Shown here in pieces: positions 12,748 through 21,702 of a stretch of DNA of 45,642 nucleotides. Position numbers and translations under genes: made by a program. How positions within the stretch are numbered: position 1 is the first letter of the stretch; each line of letters begins with the position of its first letter. The notes beneath the pieces were generated by a model. It worked only from the letters and a program-made list of their open reading frames with translations. It was not told the origin of the DNA and made no database searches. The DNA is taken from IMG/VR virus record IMGVR_UViG_3300028422_001995, positions 1 to 45,642 of that record. One strand, written 5' to 3'. The stretch is from a virus.

Positions 12748-12764
12748 CCGGGAGCGCCCCGGCA
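12748..12764 (+). other. Intercistronic GC hairpin
   Basis: GCCGGG, AGCGC, CCCGGC form a 6-bp stem four bases before the AAAGGAG of the next gene. There is no T-run. It is the same type of element as at 1178-1195. Confidence 0.5.
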
Positions 12765-12777
12765 AAGGAGCACTTTC

Positions 12778-12993
12778 ATGCTGAATCCTGAAATCTACAG
12801 AGACGGCGCCATCGCGCAGATCGCGAAGCTTTGCGAATCGGTAACCCCGGAGGACGCAGAGATCATCGGAGACGTCTTCCAAAACATGATGACGCAGTAC
12901 AAGGCCGACCTCATTGACCAGATCAGCCTTGATTGCGTCTCCGGCGTTCGCGACCGGCTGGAATCCGTGCTTTCCGCCGCGAGGAGCGCTTAA
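12778..12993 (+). CDS. Small helical protein (71 aa)
   Basis: AAAGGAG lies eight bases upstream. The sequence is helical and acidic (RDGAIAQIAKLCESVTPEDA, EIIGDVFQNMMTQYKADLID) with no known motif. It is followed directly by a 41-codon gene. Function unknown. Confidence 0.65.
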   Translation: MLNPEIYRDGAIAQIAKLCESVTPEDAEIIGDVFQNMMTQYKADLIDQISLDCVSGVRDRLESVLSAARSA

Positions 12994-13119
12994 ATGTACG
13001 CCCTCGAAACGTTCGAAAACGGAAAATGGTCACCGGTCTTAAAGAGCAATCAGCGCGATTTCCTTGAAAACGTGCTTTCGAAAATGGAATCCTCCGGCTT
13101 TACATGCCGGATCGTATAG
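12994..13119 (+). CDS. Very small protein (41 aa)
   Basis: ATG follows the previous stop directly, with GAGGAG seven bases upstream. The peptide MYALETFENGKWSPVLKSNQ then RDFLENVLSKMESSGFTCRI has the look of a beta-hairpin plus helix seen in small phage proteins that modify a polymerase or nuclease. Function unknown. The good ribosome site and operon position support it. Confidence 0.6.
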   Translation: MYALETFENGKWSPVLKSNQRDFLENVLSKMESSGFTCRIV

Positions 13120-13128
13120 AGAGGGATC

Positions 13129-13329
13129 ATGAGCGATCAGCAGAACGCGCGGACTCGGGCCAACATCAGCCTGACGTCGAAAGGTACGGTTCAGTTCGAG
13201 GTGACGGCGGAATACGACACCCCGGAGCTGATGGAGAAGAACCTCCGGGAAGGCATCGAACGCGCCCGGAAGGTAATCTCGGATCTCGGCCTCAAGGAAG
13301 TTCCTTTGGTCGAGGAAAAAACGAAGTAA
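13129..13329 (+). CDS. Small beta-helix protein (66 aa)
   Basis: GAGAGGG precedes the ATG. The protein (ISLTSKGTVQFEVTAEYDTP then ELMEKNLREGIERARKVISD) has two strands and one helix. Similar small proteins are common in phage recombination operons. No family is assigned. The overlapping frame from 13104 is a shadow in this stretch. Confidence 0.65.
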   Translation: MSDQQNARTRANISLTSKGTVQFEVTAEYDTPELMEKNLREGIERARKVISDLGLKEVPLVEEKTK

Positions 13330-13553: not shown

Positions 13554-14570
13554 ATGGGTAATGAAAACGCACTTGCGATAATTGAGAGGGCGCAGAAATC
13601 CGGAGCCCTCGTATTCGTGAACCAGGAAAACTTTCAATCGAAGGTTGAGCTCTACAAAACCGAGGCGACGGTCATTCAGGCGCGTCCTGACGAATTTCAC
13701 AATCTCCAGGGAAAATTTATGCCGAATCGGCCCGTTACCGACAGGATCGGCGAAGCGGCAGGCGTTGAGTTCGTATCCGGGCACGTTCGCTCCGAGATGC
13801 GCGACGACGCGATCGCAGGGCGCCGTACGGTTTTCATCGGAACCGCCCAGGGCAAGGTCAGGATGCCCGATGGACACTGGCGTATGAGCGCGATCGAAGA
13901 GTACGAGTTCGATCCCGTTCTTCGCGCGATGCTCGATAAGAAAATCGACTACATCACCGAAACAAATCGCTCCGTTTTCGCCCGCGCCGCCATGGAGTAT
14001 ACCAAGGTCGCGACTCAGCGTGCCGCCACCGGGGCCCGGCTTCGCGTGATACGCCAGCTCACCGGGATGCCGACAGCTTTCAGTGCCGAAGACATGAAGC
14101 GCCCGCTGGTTTTCACAAGGACCGTGCTCAACACCGAGCATATCCTCGACACCAAGGAGGGCCGGACTCTCGCGACTATGCAAGCCCTCGGGATGAACAC
14201 GGAAGCCCTTTACGGGAAGCGCTCCGACCCTGAAGAGCACGTTGAGCAACTCCCGAAGAGCAGCGAACCCGAGGACGAAGACCTAAAACAAGCTGATACC
14301 TCGCTCTCCAGCGAAGAATTGGCCGCACTCGCTGACAAGGCCACCGGAGGGCAGGGGGGAATCCAGGGCGAATTCGAGGAACTGACCGTCCAGCTCGAAG
14401 CCCTGGTCGAATCGAATAAGGAGCTCCTCGACGTGACGCTCCCGAGTAAGATCAACCCGTACCAGAAAGCGAAGGAAGAACTCGAGAACTTCGCCGCGGA
14501 CGTGGAATCCCGCAGGGCCATGATCAAGCGGACGTCCGACTTTATCGAGAAAACGAGGAACAGACCGTGA
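13554..14570 (+). CDS. Unknown phage protein coupled to the SbcD-SbcC fusion (338 aa)
   Basis: GGAGAT precedes the ATG, and the stop overlaps the SbcDC ATG. Residues 60-190 read as a folded alpha/beta domain (RIGEAAGVEFVSGHVRSEMR, GRRTVFIGTAQGKVRMPDGH, WRMSAIEEYEFDPVLRAMLD). This is followed by an acidic linker (about 220-265) and a coiled C-terminus. In layout and position it could be a single-strand annealing protein partnered with the nuclease, as RecT-type proteins are with exonucleases, but I see no RecT, Erf or Rad52 motif. I leave it as unknown. Confidence 0.68.
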   Translation: MGNENALAIIERAQKSGALVFVNQENFQSKVELYKTEATVIQARPDEFHNLQGKFMPNRPVTDRIGEAAGVEFVSGHVRSEMRDDAIAGRRTVFIGTAQGKVRMPDGHWRMSAIEEYEFDPVLRAMLDKKIDYITETNRSVFARAAMEYTKVATQRAATGARLRVIRQLTGMPTAFSAEDMKRPLVFTRTVLNTEHILDTKEGRTLATMQALGMNTEALYGKRSDPEEHVEQLPKSSEPEDEDLKQADTSLSSEELAALADKATGGQGGIQGEFEELTVQLEALVESNKELLDVTLPSKINPYQKAKEELENFAADVESRRAMIKRTSDFIEKTRNRP

Positions 14571-17500
14571 AAATACTCCATACCGCGGACATTCACACCC
14601 GCAAGGAAAATGAGCGCGAGGTCATTACTTCGCTTCGCGAGATTCGGGAAGCCCAGGTCAAAAATCGCGTTGATCTCGTCGCAATTGCCGGAGACTGGGG
14701 CGACGCCGCTATCCAAAATACCGAGCAGGGCGGTCTTGACCGCTTCCTGGGAGAACTCCAGGCGATGGCGAACGAATGCCCCGTAGTTATGGTCGAAGGA
14801 ACACCGAGCCACGACGTAGACGGCTCGCTAGAGGTGATCAAACGCCTCGACACGAAGTACGGAATCACGATTCTCGAACCGGGAAAGCCGTATTTTCTCT
14901 CGAAACACAAAATTGAGGGATGTATCGGAGTTGTAGATCGTCTCGGCGAGTTCGACGATCCTTCGCTCCTCATTCTCGGCATCCCTGAGCCTCGGAAGAA
15001 ATACCTTCTCGCGAACGGTACGGCCGGGAAGGACGCTACCGAAGAGGCTATACGCACCGCGATGAAGCAGTTTTGCTTCCAGCTTGCCGCAATCCGAAAG
15101 CAGTATGCCGACCTCCCGTGCCTCGTCGTCTACCACGGCGACGTCGCTGGAACGACGCTACAGAACGACCAGACGATCGAGCGCGGGACGGGAATCGCGA
15201 TCACGATCGACGACCTTGCCTCGATCGGCGCGGACTATTACGCGCTCGGCCACATCCACAAGCCTCAGCAGATCGGGAGTCTCCCGGCGTATTACGCTGG
15301 ATCGGCCTACGCGAAGAACTTCGGAGAAGCGCACAAGCCAGGATGCAACCTGGTGGAATTGATCGACAAAAGGTTTTCGCCCACCACTCCGAATGATCTT
15401 TTCAACTATGCGACGGGCTGGGAGGCGAAAGTCACCCGCATCGACTTCTCGCACCCGCAGAATATAAAAATCTGCCTGAAAAAGAACGAAAACTATTCTC
15501 TCGAGCAAGTAAAAGGAAAGCGCGTCTGGGTTGAAATCTCCTGCAAGAAGGAGGATCAAGCGCTTTTCGATCCTGAACAGGTTCTTCGCGATGTTCTCGC
15601 CGCCGGCGCCGTCCAGGGCTCACGGGTGACCGTGGCGCTCGAGGCCGTCGAGACCGTGCGCGCGGCAGAAATTTCCGGGGTCCTTATAACCCCTGAGAAA
15701 AAGTTCGAGATTTGGGCTGAACAGTCCGCGCTTCCCGTAACCGCTTCGCTCCGATCCAAGGTAAAGGACCTTTCCCTTGAATGCCAGCACTCGGGCGTAT
15801 CGGTTTCGGGTGAATGGGCCCTCGTCTCGGTCCGGCTCCGAGGCTCAATCGGGATCTGGAAGGGCATCCGTAAGGACGAGATTTTCGTCAACTTCGACGA
15901 GTTCGATGACGGCCTGATCGCGCTTTCCGGCAAAAACGGGAAGGGGAAGACGACCTTCATCGAAAACTGCCACTCCTACCCGCAGCTCCTTACCCGCAAG
16001 GGTACGCTCAAGGAGCACTTCCGGCTCCGCGACTCGTTCCGCGAGGTCATCTACCGCGACGTTTCTACCGGCGCCGAGAAGCGCTTCCTGATCCAGATCG
16101 ACGGCTACACGAAGTCGGGCGGATCGAAATACTTCATCTTCGACCGGGCCCCGGGCGATACCGAGTGGACTCCCGCCGCGGGCATCGACGGAAACCTCGA
16201 CCCATACAAGGAAGCCGTCCAGGCGGTCTTCGGGCCTCTCGAACTCTACCTCCGGACCGCGTTCATCACGCAGCGCCCGAACAAGGACGCGCCCGACCTC
16301 ACGGAAGCGACGAAAACCGAGAAGAAGATGCTATTCGCGAACCTCGCCGGCATCGACTACCTCCAGAAATTCGCCGATACCGCGAAGGAAAACGCCGACA
16401 AGACGGCCGCGGAGAGCCACGACGCCGAGATAAAGATCGGGATGCTCGAGCTGTCGGTTGAAAGTAAATCGCGCGTCATGGAGGACATGGCAATCACGCA
16501 GGACTTCCACGATAAGACGGCAGAGACCATCGAAACCGTGAAAACCGACGGTACCGCGGCGAAGAACCTGGTCGAGAAGCTGCAGATCGCTGCCAATGCC
16601 GAGCGGGCCCGGGCGCAACGCGTGAACGAGGTCGAATTCTCTCTTAACCGCCTCGGACAGGAACTTGCCGAAACCGCGGCCTCGATTGAGGCTCTCACTG
16701 TCCTTTCGGAGCACCGGAGCGCGATAGAATCCGAAATATCCCGTTACGAGGCCCTCAAGGCGACGATTGAGACCGAAACCGAGAAGCTCCGCGCGGTTGA
16801 AAAGCGGAACCAGGACGCGACGACCAATTATCGCGAGAAACTCGACGCTTTCAACGCAAAAAAGAGAGATATCGACGAAAAAATCGCCGCGGCCCGCCTT
16901 TCCATGACCAAGGCCGAGAACGAAGCGGATAAAATCACCAGGGTAATATCTTTCGCCCGCTCCGCTGCCCCCGAAATCGAAGACTCTTGCCCCACGTGCG
17001 GCCAAAAACTCCCCGCGGCGAAAATCGAAGAATTGACCAAGGCGCGCGAGGAAGCCCTACAACGCATCGAATTACTCGAAAACGATGCAAATACCAAAGA
17101 CGCGGAAATTGCTTCAATTCGGGCCGCTCTCGACGAGCTCGTCGCGGATTTGGCTGGTATCGAGTATGAAGAACCGACAAAACCGGCGCCGATTCCCTTC
17201 GACGAAACGATCCTTTCGAGCGCACGTACCCAAGCCGGCGCAATCCGTATCGACGAGCTCCGCGCGAACCTCACCCGGGCGACCGAGGCTTCGGCCAGAA
17301 TCGACGGATACAAGGCGCAGATCGCCGAAAAGAACCGGCAGATCGTTGAAAAGCAGGGCGAACTCGATGAGCTTCTTCGCAATGCGAACCCGGACGCGCT
17401 TACCGACCTCGAGCTCTCGAAAAAGGAGCTGGCCGACCTCACCGAGAAGTACCGGACGCTTACGGCAGACCTCGCGTCGAGCGAAGCCTCTCTCGACGCG

Positions 17501-18133
17501 CAGAAGAAACGCCTTGCCGAGATCGAAGCGTCGGAAGCCGAGCTCAAATCGCTCCGGGAGTCGGTCAAAACCGCGAAAACGGAATTCGCCGAGTGGGACC
17601 TCCTTCGCCGCGCGTTCGGCCCGGACGGGATTCAAGCCCTCGAACTCGATGCCTTGGCGCCCGGGATCGCTCAGGTCGCGAACGATATTCTCATGGCGTC
17701 CTTCGGCGACCGCTTCCGGATCGAGTTCCAGACGACGCGCATGGCCGGCGCCGGTAAAAATACGAAACAGGTCGAGGACTTCCTGATTTACGTCATCGAC
17801 ACGCTCGATGGCGAGGCAACGCTCCTCGAGAACAAGTCGGGCGGCGAGGCGGTCTGGATCAAGCGGGCGATTTACTCCGCGTTCGCGATCATCAGGTCCA
17901 GGAATACTGGCTTCCGATTCCTCACGTCGTTCCAGGATGAAGCCGACGGCGCGCTCGACTCGGCTTCCAAGGTTGCGTATTGCGACATGCTCGGAGCGGA
18001 ACACGAGACCGCGAAGCTCAAGCATACGATCATCATCACGCACTCGGAGGAAGTGAAGGCCATGATCGACCAGAAGATCGACATGGAATCGTTCGCGGAA
18101 GAGAAGGAGAAAGACGGGGAGGAAGTGGCATGA
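14567..18133 (+). CDS. SbcD-SbcC (Mre11-Rad50) single-chain fusion
   Basis: One uninterrupted 1188-codon frame holds both subunits. The N-terminal part (1 to about 380) is a Mre11/SbcD nuclease: Asp8-x-His10, Gly42-Asp43, a GTPSHD variant of GNHD near 78-83 (the metal-binding Asn is not obvious), His190 in YHGD and Gly228-His229-Ile-His231. The remainder is Rad50/SbcC: Walker A SGKNGKGKTT (454-463), coiled coil, zinc hook CPTC (Cys808, Cys811), coiled coil, signature KSGGE (1090-1094) and Walker B/D-loop DEADGALD from 1124. Normally these are two genes (about 400 and 1050 residues) forming a 2:2 complex that opens hairpins and blocked DNA ends. Fusion fixes the stoichiometry. ATGA overlaps join it to both neighbours. 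Confidence 0.94.
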   Translation: MKILHTADIHTRKENEREVITSLREIREAQVKNRVDLVAIAGDWGDAAIQNTEQGGLDRFLGELQAMANECPVVMVEGTPSHDVDGSLEVIKRLDTKYGITILEPGKPYFLSKHKIEGCIGVVDRLGEFDDPSLLILGIPEPRKKYLLANGTAGKDATEEAIRTAMKQFCFQLAAIRKQYADLPCLVVYHGDVAGTTLQNDQTIERGTGIAITIDDLASIGADYYALGHIHKPQQIGSLPAYYAGSAYAKNFGEAHKPGCNLVELIDKRFSPTTPNDLFNYATGWEAKVTRIDFSHPQNIKICLKKNENYSLEQVKGKRVWVEISCKKEDQALFDPEQVLRDVLAAGAVQGSRVTVALEAVETVRAAEISGVLITPEKKFEIWAEQSALPVTASLRSKVKDLSLECQHSGVSVSGEWALVSVRLRGSIGIWKGIRKDEIFVNFDEFDDGLIALSGKNGKGKTTFIENCHSYPQLLTRKGTLKEHFRLRDSFREVIYRDVSTGAEKRFLIQIDGYTKSGGSKYFIFDRAPGDTEWTPAAGIDGNLDPYKEAVQAVFGPLELYLRTAFITQRPNKDAPDLTEATKTEKKMLFANLAGIDYLQKFADTAKENADKTAAESHDAEIKIGMLELSVESKSRVMEDMAITQDFHDKTAETIETVKTDGTAAKNLVEKLQIAANAERARAQRVNEVEFSLNRLGQELAETAASIEALTVLSEHRSAIESEISRYEALKATIETETEKLRAVEKRNQDATTNYREKLDAFNAKKRDIDEKIAAARLSMTKAENEADKITRVISFARSAAPEIEDSCPTCGQKLPAAKIEELTKAREEALQRIELLENDANTKDAEIASIRAALDELVADLAGIEYEEPTKPAPIPFDETILSSARTQAGAIRIDELRANLTRATEASARIDGYKAQIAEKNRQIVEKQGELDELLRNANPDALTDLELSKKELADLTEKYRTLTADLASSEASLDAQKKRLAEIEASEAELKSLRESVKTAKTEFAEWDLLRRAFGPDGIQALELDALAPGIAQVANDILMASFGDRFRIEFQTTRMAGAGKNTKQVEDFLIYVIDTLDGEATLLENKSGGEAVWIKRAIYSAFAIIRSRNTGFRFLTSFQDEADGALDSASKVAYCDMLGAEHETAKLKHTIIITHSEEVKAMIDQKIDMESFAEEKEKDGEEVA

Positions 18134-18867: not shown

Positions 18868-19182
18868 ATGATAAAAGCAGAAACAGTGAGAGGTATCGAC
18901 CGTATCTATCGCGAGATAGAAGCAGGAGAAAAACTCCTCGGCGAGGTCGATGAGCAAATAAGCAAGGCAACCGAAAGAATCGGATTCCATGGTGAACCGC
19001 AAACAACAGCACGTCCGTGTCAACTTGGATGGCCTGACCGTGACGGGTATCGAATCTATAACGTCGAACCGATCATTGCTCGGGCCGTAATCGTTGCGCA
19101 CCTCTCAGATCAGCGCGCGAAGCTCGAGAAACTGAACGAGATCGCGCGACTCGAGGTCCTGAGCGAGGATAACCATGGCTGA
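18868..19182 (+). CDS. Unknown helical protein (104 aa)
   Basis: AAAGGTGGGGG precedes the ATG. The sequence is two helices (VRGIDRIYREIEAGEKLLGE and IIARAVIVAHLSDQRAKLEK) separated by a loop. The 3' end overlaps ssb by eight bases, so ssb translation is probably coupled to it. No family recognised. Confidence 0.62.
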   Translation: MIKAETVRGIDRIYREIEAGEKLLGEVDEQISKATERIGFHGEPQTTARPCQLGWPDRDGYRIYNVEPIIARAVIVAHLSDQRAKLEKLNEIARLEVLSEDNHG

Positions 19183-19627
19183 CGTAAACCACGTAATCCT
19201 GATCGGCCGGCTTACCCGAGACGCCGAACTCAAGTATACCTCAGGGGGGATGGCCGTTTGCAAGTTCGCTATCGCGGTCAACAAACGCCGGAAGCAAGGC
19301 GAGCAATGGGTCGAGGAAGCCAATTTCTTCGATATCGTCCTCTGGGGACGGTCAGGCGAATCCCTGAATCAGTACCTGGTGAAGGGAAAACAGGTTGCCG
19401 TCGAGGGTGAACTGCATCAGAACCGCTGGGAGCAGGACGGGCAAGCACGGTCAAAGATCGAGATCATGGCGAATAATGTGCAGCTTCTCGGAGGCCAAGG
19501 ACAGCCGCAAACCGGCGCAAATGCTTCGGGATACCAGGGAACCTCGGGAAACGCAAATTCGGGCACGTCTCGTAGCGATCAGGGCGATTCCGGGCCGCCT
19601 GACTACCCGGATGATATTCCGTTTTAG
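19175..19627 (+). CDS. ssb: Single-stranded DNA-binding protein
   Basis: A typical bacterial-type SSB: OB fold over residues 4-106 (NHVILIGRLTRDAELKYTSG, then FFDIVLWGRSGESLNQYLVK and GKQVAVEGEL), a Gly/Gln/Ser-rich linker, and the acidic tip PDDIPF that recruits partner proteins. At 150 residues it is a normal length. It covers single strands during phage replication and recombination. An intrinsic terminator follows directly and closes the operon from 11890. Confidence 0.96.
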   Translation: MADVNHVILIGRLTRDAELKYTSGGMAVCKFAIAVNKRRKQGEQWVEEANFFDIVLWGRSGESLNQYLVKGKQVAVEGELHQNRWEQDGQARSKIEIMANNVQLLGGQGQPQTGANASGYQGTSGNANSGTSRSDQGDSGPPDYPDDIPF

Positions 19628-19635
19628 GGGTTAAA

Positions 19636-19662
19636 CCCTCGGCGCATTTTGCCGGGGGTTTT
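19636..19662 (+). terminator. Rho-independent terminator after ssb
   Basis: CCCTCGGC pairs with GCCGGGGG (one G-T) around the loop GCATTTT, followed by TTTTAT. It ends the recombination operon just before the integron cassettes. Confidence 0.82.
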
Positions 19663-19701
19663 ATCCGGAACCGTAGAAACGGAGTTAGCCGGATTCTTTA
19701 G

Positions 19702-19730
19702 CAGTCTACCGCGCTTCGCGCACTAGACTG
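19702..19730 (+). other. Hairpin in cassette 1 leader
   Basis: CAGTCTA (19702-19708) pairs with TAGACTG (19724-19730), with an inner GCGC/GCGC helix closing a TTC loop. It lies in the 5' leader of the cassette gene. It may shield or tune the GGAGG ribosome site downstream. Confidence 0.5.
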
Positions 19731-19754
19731 ACACGAACCAAGCTGGAGGAAATC

Positions 19755-19997
19755 GTGGAAAAAATAAACCTCGACGAAGGTATAGAAAACGGAACAATCA
19801 TAGTTCCGGAGTTTTTCCGGAAACGCTACCGACATGATTGCGTCGTTAAGTTTCGCGATGGATGGTACGGCCATCCGAATACGATTGTAAAAAGTGTCGA
19901 TCAGGCGTACCGATACACTGAGTCCGAAGCAAAGGCACTTATCTCGAACATGGGCGGAGGAGAAATCCAGCGGCTAACAACTGCTTCAACTGGATAG
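19755..19997 (+). CDS. Integron cassette protein 1 (80 aa, unknown)
   Basis: GTG start with GGAGG eight bases upstream. The protein (KINLDEGIENGTIIVPEFFR, KRYRHDCVVKFRDGWYGHPN, SESEAK-like helix YTESEAKALISN) has no family I recognise. Its last nine codons and stop (TAG at 19995) lie inside attC, a usual property of cassette genes. There is no promoter of its own that I can see, so expression would depend on upstream read-through. Confidence 0.72.
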   Translation: MEKINLDEGIENGTIIVPEFFRKRYRHDCVVKFRDGWYGHPNTIVKSVDQAYRYTESEAKALISNMGGGEIQRLTTASTG

Positions 19998-20034
19998 TCT
20001 GCTTCGCATCCTGCCAGTTAAGCAAATGTTAGAC
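19972..20034 (+). other. attC recombination site (complete)
   Basis: R'' GGCTAAC and R' GTTAGAC (20028-20034, matches GTTRRRY) flank the site. CTAACA pairs with TGTTAG. The L arms TGCTTCAACTGG (19982-19993) and CCAGTTAAGCA (20014-20024) pair over 11 bases with C19987 left over as an extrahelical base. AC/AA form the unpaired central spacer, and 19994-20013 is the variable terminal structure. Every hallmark of a folded attC hairpin is present. Confidence 0.9.
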
Positions 20035-20093
20035 CGACAATCACGGCATAAGCCCTACGGGCTTACACCGATTGATTGCGAAAGGAGAAAGAT

Positions 20094-20330
20094 GTGAAGA
20101 AGAGTTTTACTATTGAGATTTATGTCGACGTTGAAATACCCGACGATAAGATAGAGAAAGCGGTTAAGGATTACCGCGAGTGTATCAATGAAACTGCCGA
20201 CATAAACGATGTCATGGCTCAAGTCGCATGGAACGAGGCGCGGTACGGCGGGTTCTGTGAGGGTGTCGGCGAGAATGGTGAAGACTTCACGGCAACCGTA
20301 ACCGGAGACAATACATCGGAAGATGTCTAA
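20094..20330 (+). CDS. Integron cassette protein 2 (78 aa, unknown)
   Basis: GTG start at 20094 with AAAGGAG six bases upstream. The TTG at 20076 would precede this site. The protein is acidic: KKSFTIEIYVDVEIPDDKIE forms strands, then a helix (EKAVKDYRECINETADIN), and the tail GEDFTATVTGDNTSEDV. Its stop TAA forms part of the attC R'' box. I do not recognise it. The acidity and size are compatible with a protein-protein inhibitor, but that is only a guess. Confidence 0.7.
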   Translation: MKKSFTIEIYVDVEIPDDKIEKAVKDYRECINETADINDVMAQVAWNEARYGGFCEGVGENGEDFTATVTGDNTSEDV

Positions 20331-20348
20331 CAACAGCTTCGACCTGAC
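20325..20348 (+). other. Left half of a second attC site
   Basis: GTCTAAC (fits RYYYAAC), then AAC and AGCTTCGACCTGAC as the L'' arm. The complementary right half is absent, so this site should be inactive. Confidence 0.65.
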
Positions 20349-20588
20349 ACGCTATGGTTCTCAATAAAACCTATGATACCTGAAATTGATTTTACAAAAT
20401 AAACCGCATTGTATCGGGTTGTAAAGCCTAACGGAAATGAAGTCCACCAATACAATCCGTTTATAACGGTATTCTTAAATGTATATCTAAAATTGATTTT
20501 ACTGGCAAAAATGCCCAAACATTTGTTCTTGATTGATTTTGATTCTCGTGATGATTATGTATTCGATCAATCGATTCTGGCGGACCGG
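20349..20588 (+). other. AT-rich gene-poor stretch after the cassettes
   Basis: I find no supported gene. A 13-base direct repeat AAATTGATTTTAC occurs at 20383-20395 and 20490-20502. An isolated GCCTAAC at 20427-20433 fits the attC R'' consensus but has no partner. A 65-codon frame from a TTG at 20409 lacks a ribosome site and convincing composition. The stretch may be decayed cassette DNA. Confidence 0.45.
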
Positions 20589-20624: not shown

Positions 20625-20701
20625 AGGATTTCACGATACCAGGGCGGCGCCTTACGCCTCCCGAACACCCCGCCAGGTGGGTATCGTGAAGTCCTTTTTT
20701 T
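20625..20701 (+). ncRNA. Short structured RNA / attenuator before replication gene
   Basis: GGATTTCACGATACC (20626-20640) pairs with GGTATCGTGAAGTCC (20680-20694) with one T-G, enclosing a GC-rich domain that can form two small arms (GGCG/CGCC and CACC/GGTG). Seven T follow (20695-20701). From the predicted start at about 20625, the whole RNA of about 77 nt is one terminator-ended structure. It could be a regulatory RNA or an attenuator for the 20734 gene. Confidence 0.6.
20680..20701 (+). terminator. Rho-independent terminator (3' arm of 20626-20694 hairpin)
   Basis: The 15-bp outer stem described for the RNA above, followed by TTTTTTT. It lies 32 bases before the ATG of the replication gene. 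Confidence 0.8.
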
Positions 20702-20733: not shown

Positions 20734-21702
20734 ATGGCAACACAGCGATATATTTCAACATCGTTTTGGGATGATGAATGGGTCCATAAGCTCGATCCTT
20801 CAGAGAAATTGCTTTACATGTACTTCATGACGAACACCCTTACCAACATTGCCGGGGTGTATAAAATATCGGTAAACCGCATTTCTTTTGATACCGGATT
20901 CAACGAAAACACCATCCAGCACATCATGGATAAGTTTGAAAAATCCGGAAAAGTACACCGTCACAACGAATACGTCGCTCTTCCTTCTTGGCCGAAGCAT
21001 CAGAAGTGGCAAGTCAAGAAAACCATTTGCGAAGGCATCGTAAGCATACTCAACGACCTCGACGATGACACCTTCAAATGGCTTTTCCATACAGGATATA
21101 GATTTGATTTTTCCCTGACACGCCATTCAGGGGATATCCTACCCATACCATACCCATATCCTACCCCTACCATACCCATACCACCCGATACCGCCTCATA
21201 TGACCCGAGCTATTCTGATTTAAATTCTGATTTAAATTCTGATTTAAATTCTGATTCTGATTTGGATATAGATTCTTCGCCGGAAAATCCGGCTCAGGAG
21301 TATTCTCATCAGAAACCTTTTCAACGTTTTAACATTCCGGCTAACGACGCAAGATCGCGTATTGAGCCTCTTCGAAGAACATGGAACGCCCTCGGGCTTC
21401 CAGAATCTCGAATATCCGTTACTGCGTCGCCTGGCCAAAATTCAGAGAGCCTCGTCTTCTTGCAATACTATTCTGACGATGAGATTACAAAGGCCATGCA
21501 GAACTATAAGCGGATCATTTCAGAACCAGAGTTTGATCTTCCCGTTCAATTCCAGTACAAAACCTTTTATTCGTTCATGGGAAAAGGCGTTGAAAAATTT
21601 GCCGACGGAGCAAAGCCGTTTGAATATTATAAAAAACGAGAGTCACAAGGTAGCGTAAAAAAACAACACCTCGTAACGAATCTTGAAGGTATTGAGTTTT
21701 AG
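20734..21702 (+). CDS. Phage replication initiator-like protein
   Basis: Start at ATG 20734 with GGGAGGG upstream. The frame open back to 20620 is shadow through the terminator. The N-terminal domain (STSFWDDEWVHKLDPSEKLL then YMYFMTNTLTNIAGVYKISV and GFNENTIQHIMDKFEKSGKV) is the winged-helix plan of phage replisome organisers ('FW.D.yi..L.p.eKllflYLlTN...nlaGiYei'). A Pro/Tyr/Ile stretch (PIPYPYPTPTIPIPPD) and SDLN repeats form a low-complexity linker. A helical C-terminal domain ends the 322-residue protein. Its 12-bp DNA repeats may serve as the origin, as in lambda O. Confidence 0.86.
   Translation: MATQRYISTSFWDDEWVHKLDPSEKLLYMYFMTNTLTNIAGVYKISVNRISFDTGFNENTIQHIMDKFEKSGKVHRHNEYVALPSWPKHQKWQVKKTICEGIVSILNDLDDDTFKWLFHTGYRFDFSLTRHSGDILPIPYPYPTPTIPIPPDTASYDPSYSDLNSDLNSDLNSDSDLDIDSSPENPAQEYSHQKPFQRFNIPANDARSRIEPLRRTWNALGLPESRISVTASPGQNSESLVFLQYYSDDEITKAMQNYKRIISEPEFDLPVQFQYKTFYSFMGKGVEKFADGAKPFEYYKKRESQGSVKKQHLVTNLEGIEF
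21213..21248 (+). repeat. Three 12-bp iteron-like repeats inside replication gene
   Basis: TTCTGATTTAAA is repeated exactly three times in tandem (21213-21248) with a partial fourth (to about 21266). It is AT-rich and follows CCTACCC/CCATACC repeats (about 21137-21184). Tandem iterons in the linker region of an initiator gene are a known phage origin layout. Confidence 0.6.

Follow-up and report, generated by a model that had tools for sequence, protein, structure and literature searches.

How did integron gene cassettes come to lie in the early region of a phage, between ssb and the replication initiator, and were they captured by the phage, as a sequence-only reading of this DNA had proposed? 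The window, i.e. the whole 45,642-nt stretch analysed here, corresponds to G000:C1:530946-576587 in a host genome (G000) of 3.41 Mb and 15 contigs. Its context is that of a prophage, with a tyrosine integrase, an SSB, a terminase large subunit and a DUF4055 portal recognized by Pfam, and a DnaD-like helicase loader, a terminase small subunit and a tape measure recognized by PHROG. The host is probably a treponeme-family bacterium (Treponemataceae), a spirochaete, because a genome of the same family (G014) carries at G014:C1:1344230 the sequence GTTAGGT, the attI core of Treponema brennaborense at its published position (PMC3607928). Integrons and clusters of attC sites lacking a nearby integrase (CALINs) are already known from phages (Qi et al. 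2023, PMC9892861).

Cassettes and attC sites of the window

The proposed placement is borne out. The ssb gene (19175..19627, + strand; PF00436, E=1e-32), whose product is 97% identical over 102 aa to the SSB of the IMG/VR phage G322, lies directly left of the array, and a replication initiator or helicase loader (20734..21702, +; phrog_6251, E=6e-19; phrog_1701, DnaD-like, E=3e-18) is its right neighbour. Cassette 1 (19685..20028, +) is complete and 344 bp long. It begins with the left core GTTAGCC, the reverse complement of its own R'' box, and holds one gene of 80 aa (19755..19997, +) whose stop codon, TAG at 19995-19997, lies inside attC. The protein has no Pfam or PHROG match and no relative among 294 genomes of the order or in viral contigs.

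The attC of cassette 1 (19972..20034, +) is composed of R'' (19972-19978, GGCTAAC), L'' (19982-19993), L' (20014-20024) and R' (20028-20034, GTTAGAC), with 11 L pairs (5+6) and an extrahelical C at 19987. Folded as single-stranded DNA, its bottom strand reaches -12.9 kcal/mol compared with -5.8 ± 1.9 for shuffled sequences (z=-3.65), and the covariance model R2, built from 11 attCs of relatives' chromosomal integrons with window and host sequence left out, scores it at 52.0 bits (E=1.5e-9 in 132 kb). Fold and score together rule out a chance hairpin. Both halves, R''L'' CTAACAACTGCTTCAAC (17/17) and L'R' GTTAAGCAAATGTTAG (16/16), are identical to the consensus for some 20 attCs that form a chromosomal array next to intI in G008, a genome of the same genus as the host. 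Standard pairs make up 98.7% of the paired cells in an alignment of 14 sites of this attC family, the window site among them, and changes on both sides are seen in six pairs. Judged by sequence and predicted fold, the site is a genuine integron attC, with the two R boxes, the L pairing and the extrahelical base that the sequence-only reading had described.

Cassette 2 (20029..20348, +) is terminal. Its left core GTTAGAC is the reverse complement of its R'' box, GTCTAAC, and its 78-aa gene (20094..20330, +) stops with TAA at 20328-20330 in R''. The protein shows a weak match to phrog_19384 (unknown function; E=8e-4) and has no relative among the 294 genomes of the order. Its attC is a half-site, R''-L'' GTCTAACAACAGCTTCGACCTGAC (20325..20348, +; half-site PWM score 35.2), which lacks L' and R': R2 gave no hit, the fold z-score is 0.24 and no complete attC is present within 20325-20475. 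The description of two cassettes, each with a left core complementary to its R'' and one short gene ending in attC, thus stands for boundaries and genes, but the second attC is reduced to its left half. With one attC and one half, the window array falls short of the two attC sites without nearby intI that define a CALIN, a definition that covers the arrays of related phages with two (G001) and four (G322) attCs.

Two further features flank the array. An inverted repeat before the replication gene (GGATTTCACGATACC...GGGTATCGTGAAGTCC, 20626-20695), kept in the sister prophage G001, is a possible attenuator. Just upstream of the hairpin-forming array, a gene at 14567-18133 encodes a 1188-aa protein that fuses SbcD-like and SbcC-like parts (palindrome endonuclease); G001 has it too, and L046 and L048 have parts of it.

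Arrays at the same place in related phages and in other viral records

The window prophage has a sister at G001:C13, in a different species of the host genus (helicase 85%, terminase 78%, portal 68% and SbcDC 64% identical). The order in this sister is ssb, attI-like block, two attC cassettes (attCs at 12756-12810 and 13084-13145 in the reversed locus L114), a half-attC cassette and the replication gene. G322, which has 21 gene families in common with the window, is arranged as ssb, two genes, attI, four attC cassettes, replication gene and terminase. By sequence, all three phages have an array in the slot bounded by ssb and the replication gene, each with different cassettes. Of the six IMG/VR records with an ssb, five have the array no more than about 1 kb away from it, as do the window and G001; the association is only suggestive because three of these arrays represent one lineage. 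No relative with an empty site was found: the replication initiator, compared with 59 other genomes of the family, genome_contigs and viral contigs, gave no close phage.

Such arrays occur in at least 13 further IMG/VR records, phage hallmark genes having been checked in part of them. An attC arm pattern picks out 14 stretches in 12 IMG/VR contigs, all of which contain attCs by R2 and most of them several. Phage arrays consist of short attCs, the short-loop pattern matching 14 stretches of the viral contigs and the long-loop pattern, which fits most G008 sites, none. In phage and chromosomal arrays together, R' is the complement of the next R'' at 43 of 54 junctions. The left half of attC that closes the window array also ends arrays in G317, G320, G321, G324, G326 (twice), L107 and G001, and a ribosome-binding site with the following gene often comes directly after it; elsewhere the last attC is complete (e.g. 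G319, G325), or none is recognizable at the end (G322). A half-attC at the array end is therefore frequent among phage arrays and not universal.

The median phage cassette is close to 350 bp long, and the larger ones encode RtcB, N6/N4 methylases and Mom- and Dam-like proteins. One cassette is common to L117 (first position) and G317 (third position), 97% identical over 381 bp, with divergence beginning inside attC; two others are shared at full length, at 74-79%, between phages that otherwise have little in common. Among individual records, G326 carries the module of attI, cassettes, half-attC and a paralogous gene twice (G326:16481-18485; L099), and a G322 cassette (G322:17363-17767; L095) encodes a phrog_478 protein, labelled a recombination directionality factor, of a family present in many phages.

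Leader, putative entry site and integrase

Nearly every phage-array cassette carries a structured leader of about 65 nt, in most cases with a ribosome-binding site at its end. GTTNNNN-N-G-A-Y, in which GA is invariant, opens each of the 56 phage-array cassettes analysed (the two of the window among them), and an outer helix around a bulged A forms 6/6 pairs in 27 of the 56 (shuffled mean 5.0, maximum 12). The leader of cassette 1 (19684..19757, +; GTTRRRY-N-GAY, hairpin and ribosome-binding site) pairs 5/6 in its outer arm and is 89% identical over 57 nt to a G326 leader and 77-80% to leaders of G318, G321 and G327. That of cassette 2 (20028..20096, +) has the full outer helix (6/6) with the bulged A and is 81% identical over 63 nt to the G326_18485 leader. 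None of the 29 chromosomal cassettes examined has this leader; they have only a short hairpin in its place.

The first phage cassettes are directly preceded by TTAKGCTGAACAGTCTAATATATG/TT or a relative of it. Leave-one-out PWMs rank the true attI position first in most phage contigs and also at the intI-proximal end of the chromosomal integrons of G008 and G014. Held-out matches lie beside intI in G011, G009, G005 and G039 and before formerly unassigned phage cassettes in G321, G326 and G328, against a background of four shuffled matches in 2.84 Mb. A strict version of the phage pattern occurs at nine places in the viral contigs and at none in 84,980 species genomes (genome_contigs). The window block TTATCCGGAACCGTAGAAACGGAG (19661..19684, +; crossover G19684/TT19685) is degenerate: a PWM trained without it puts it at rank 1 among 91,230 positions when the core is counted and at ranks 5 to 28 when it is not, and with 17/24 identical positions it is the best match in the window to the G001 block. 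The phage entry site thus appears to resemble the chromosomal attI beside intI, being strong in relatives and weak in the window. With an attI-like left edge, the window locus would therefore be a resident array locus, and the block may work as an attI. A terminator-like inverted repeat after ssb, seen by eye (ACCCTCGGC...GCCGGGGGT then TTTT; 19633..19664, +) and missing from the output of a terminator scan, overlaps this block with its edge. No promoter of the Pc kind was found upstream of the window array. Elsewhere, sigma-70-like promoters (10/12 matches) in a Pc-like placement lie just upstream of attI in L107, L117 and G321a (G321:10670).

None of the 14 phage records, some of which are fragments, contains an integron integrase. 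The window array is not a complete integron with intI next to attI either, the only IntI of the host being encoded at G000:C6:577135-578064 (420 bits, cut-off 265; tyrosine-recombinase motifs visible). G001 also encodes IntI. Around the host gene (G000:C6:577135-579584), a further tyrosine recombinase gene, encoded on the other strand, comes after intI, and the contig has, about 140 bp before its end, a weak attI candidate and a start resembling that of a cassette, GTTGGACGGACCCTTCGGG. A second attC pair of the host (G000:C1:304537-308719; L042:9538-13719, - strand) encloses cassettes for a DUF6119 protein and a 761-aa protein, far from intI and beside an NlpC/P60 gene resembling a phage tail module.

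A proposed phage-resident platform and its alternatives

We consider it about two-thirds probable that the window locus is a reduced version of an integron platform that resides in phages, has no integrase of its own, and whose cassettes are exchanged by a host IntI in trans. The platform would comprise an attI-like entry, one complete cassette and one terminal cassette locked by a half-attC, and each cassette unit would combine one small gene, a structured leader with ribosome-binding site and a short attC. Across the wider phage set, cassettes would be gained and lost at attI and attC by the IntI of an integron-bearing host, presumably acting on the phage array in trans, and would be read along with the early genes. 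The terminal half-attC would keep the last cassette and the neighbouring phage genes from excision. Given its diverged attI and the halving of its last attC, the window copy itself may be mostly frozen. Methyltransferases, Mom-like and Dam-like proteins and RtcB in cassettes elsewhere suggest that array cassettes may serve counter-defence or accessory early functions.

The cassettes of a phage-resident array could also be exchanged by phage recombination, homologous or illegitimate, between repeated attCs and leaders, the sites being fossils of an older capture in which IntI has no present role. The missing IntI in the phages, the half-attC ends and the degenerate window block agree with such exchange, and the near-identical L117/G317 cassette, diverging within attC, fits it as well as it fits IntI; homologous exchange at these repeats would account for part of the data. 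As a full explanation it seems unlikely, given the R'/R'' chaining, the covariation of attC arms and the attI-like blocks conserved in unrelated phages, all of which are signs of selection for recombination. The attCs of Tetrasphaera phage TJE1, moreover, recombine with attI1 via IntI1 (PMC9892861).

The sequence-only reading had proposed that the phage captured its cassettes. The cassettes are real, and a single capture, in which the phage took up a piece of its host's chromosomal integron, would fit attC arms that equal the consensus of a same-genus array in a host that has IntI and attCs elsewhere. We nevertheless regard a one-off event as very improbable, because related phages hold other cassettes in the same place and because the leader is of the phage-array type, which the 29 chromosomal cassettes compared lack; the phage arrays are also built of short attCs. 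An origin of the two window proteins in a host array was rejected, as neither has a relative in the 294 genomes of the order. The outcomes that could have overturned the sequence-only reading did not occur: the covariance model did not return noise for the complete attC, and no integron-free relative with the same two genes at the same place, lacking boundaries at GTTAGCC/GTTAGAC, was found. Least probable is a single insertion by host IntI at a non-classical attG-type site of the phage genome: recombination of attC with attG is known (mentioned in PMC12901181), but the left edge is a conserved attI-like block, more than a bare G/WT, the right edge is a half-attC with no whole attC, and relatives have arrays at the same locus.

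Read as a phage-resident platform, the window array is a variant, new in form, of the known phage CALINs, with which it shares attC cassette arrays in phages, lack of an integrase and, among its relatives, methyltransferase cassettes (PMC9892861). IMG/VR record G325 corresponds to the isolated phage TJE1 (HQ225832) and has the same sites. TJE1 resembles the present arrays in attC family (96% over 56 bp with a G322 attC), in leader and in position beside ssb. Its block TGTTAGACCGATCGGTCCAAC, called a terminator in PMC9892861, stands at the place of the attI-like block of other phages; it is one base shorter and scores low with the PWM in fixed register. That paper reports clusters of attC sites in separate phages and does not mention the leader or ssb, and we found no account in the literature of terminal half-attCs, of a locus common to related phages or of cassettes shared between phages. 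The integrons in Treponema chromosomes (PMC3607928) have the same attC arms and the order intI-attI-array, with intI reading toward the array, whereas the phage arrays have no intI, short attCs, longer leaders, smaller cassettes and a diverged attI. In the Shewanella prophage M16-3, too, a CALIN has its own attI (PMC9892861); it differs in that this phage has a complete integron as well, with an IntI nearly identical to a chromosomal one, and in being no cross-phage platform.

Arrays with different genes in related and unrelated phages suggest that accessory genes are traded via a borrowed bacterial machine. It is conceivable, and we propose it tentatively, that diverse phages own a dedicated exchange system, with a phage-specific attI, leader-bearing short cassettes and a terminal lock. 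In infected cells they would borrow the IntI of the host, and early genes for accessory or counter-defence functions would thereby be swapped between phages whose hosts belong to different phyla. Spirochaete hosting is shown for the window and G001 prophages only, and TJE1 infects an actinobacterium; the source of IntI may therefore vary. The scattered reports of phage attCs would then describe a structured platform that recurs among phages, one which has an entry site and a defined end and whose cassettes share a conserved leader. Should this platform be served by host IntI, phage early accessory genes would be shuffled module by module, and integrons would be a gene-exchange tool common to both sides of the phage-host conflict.
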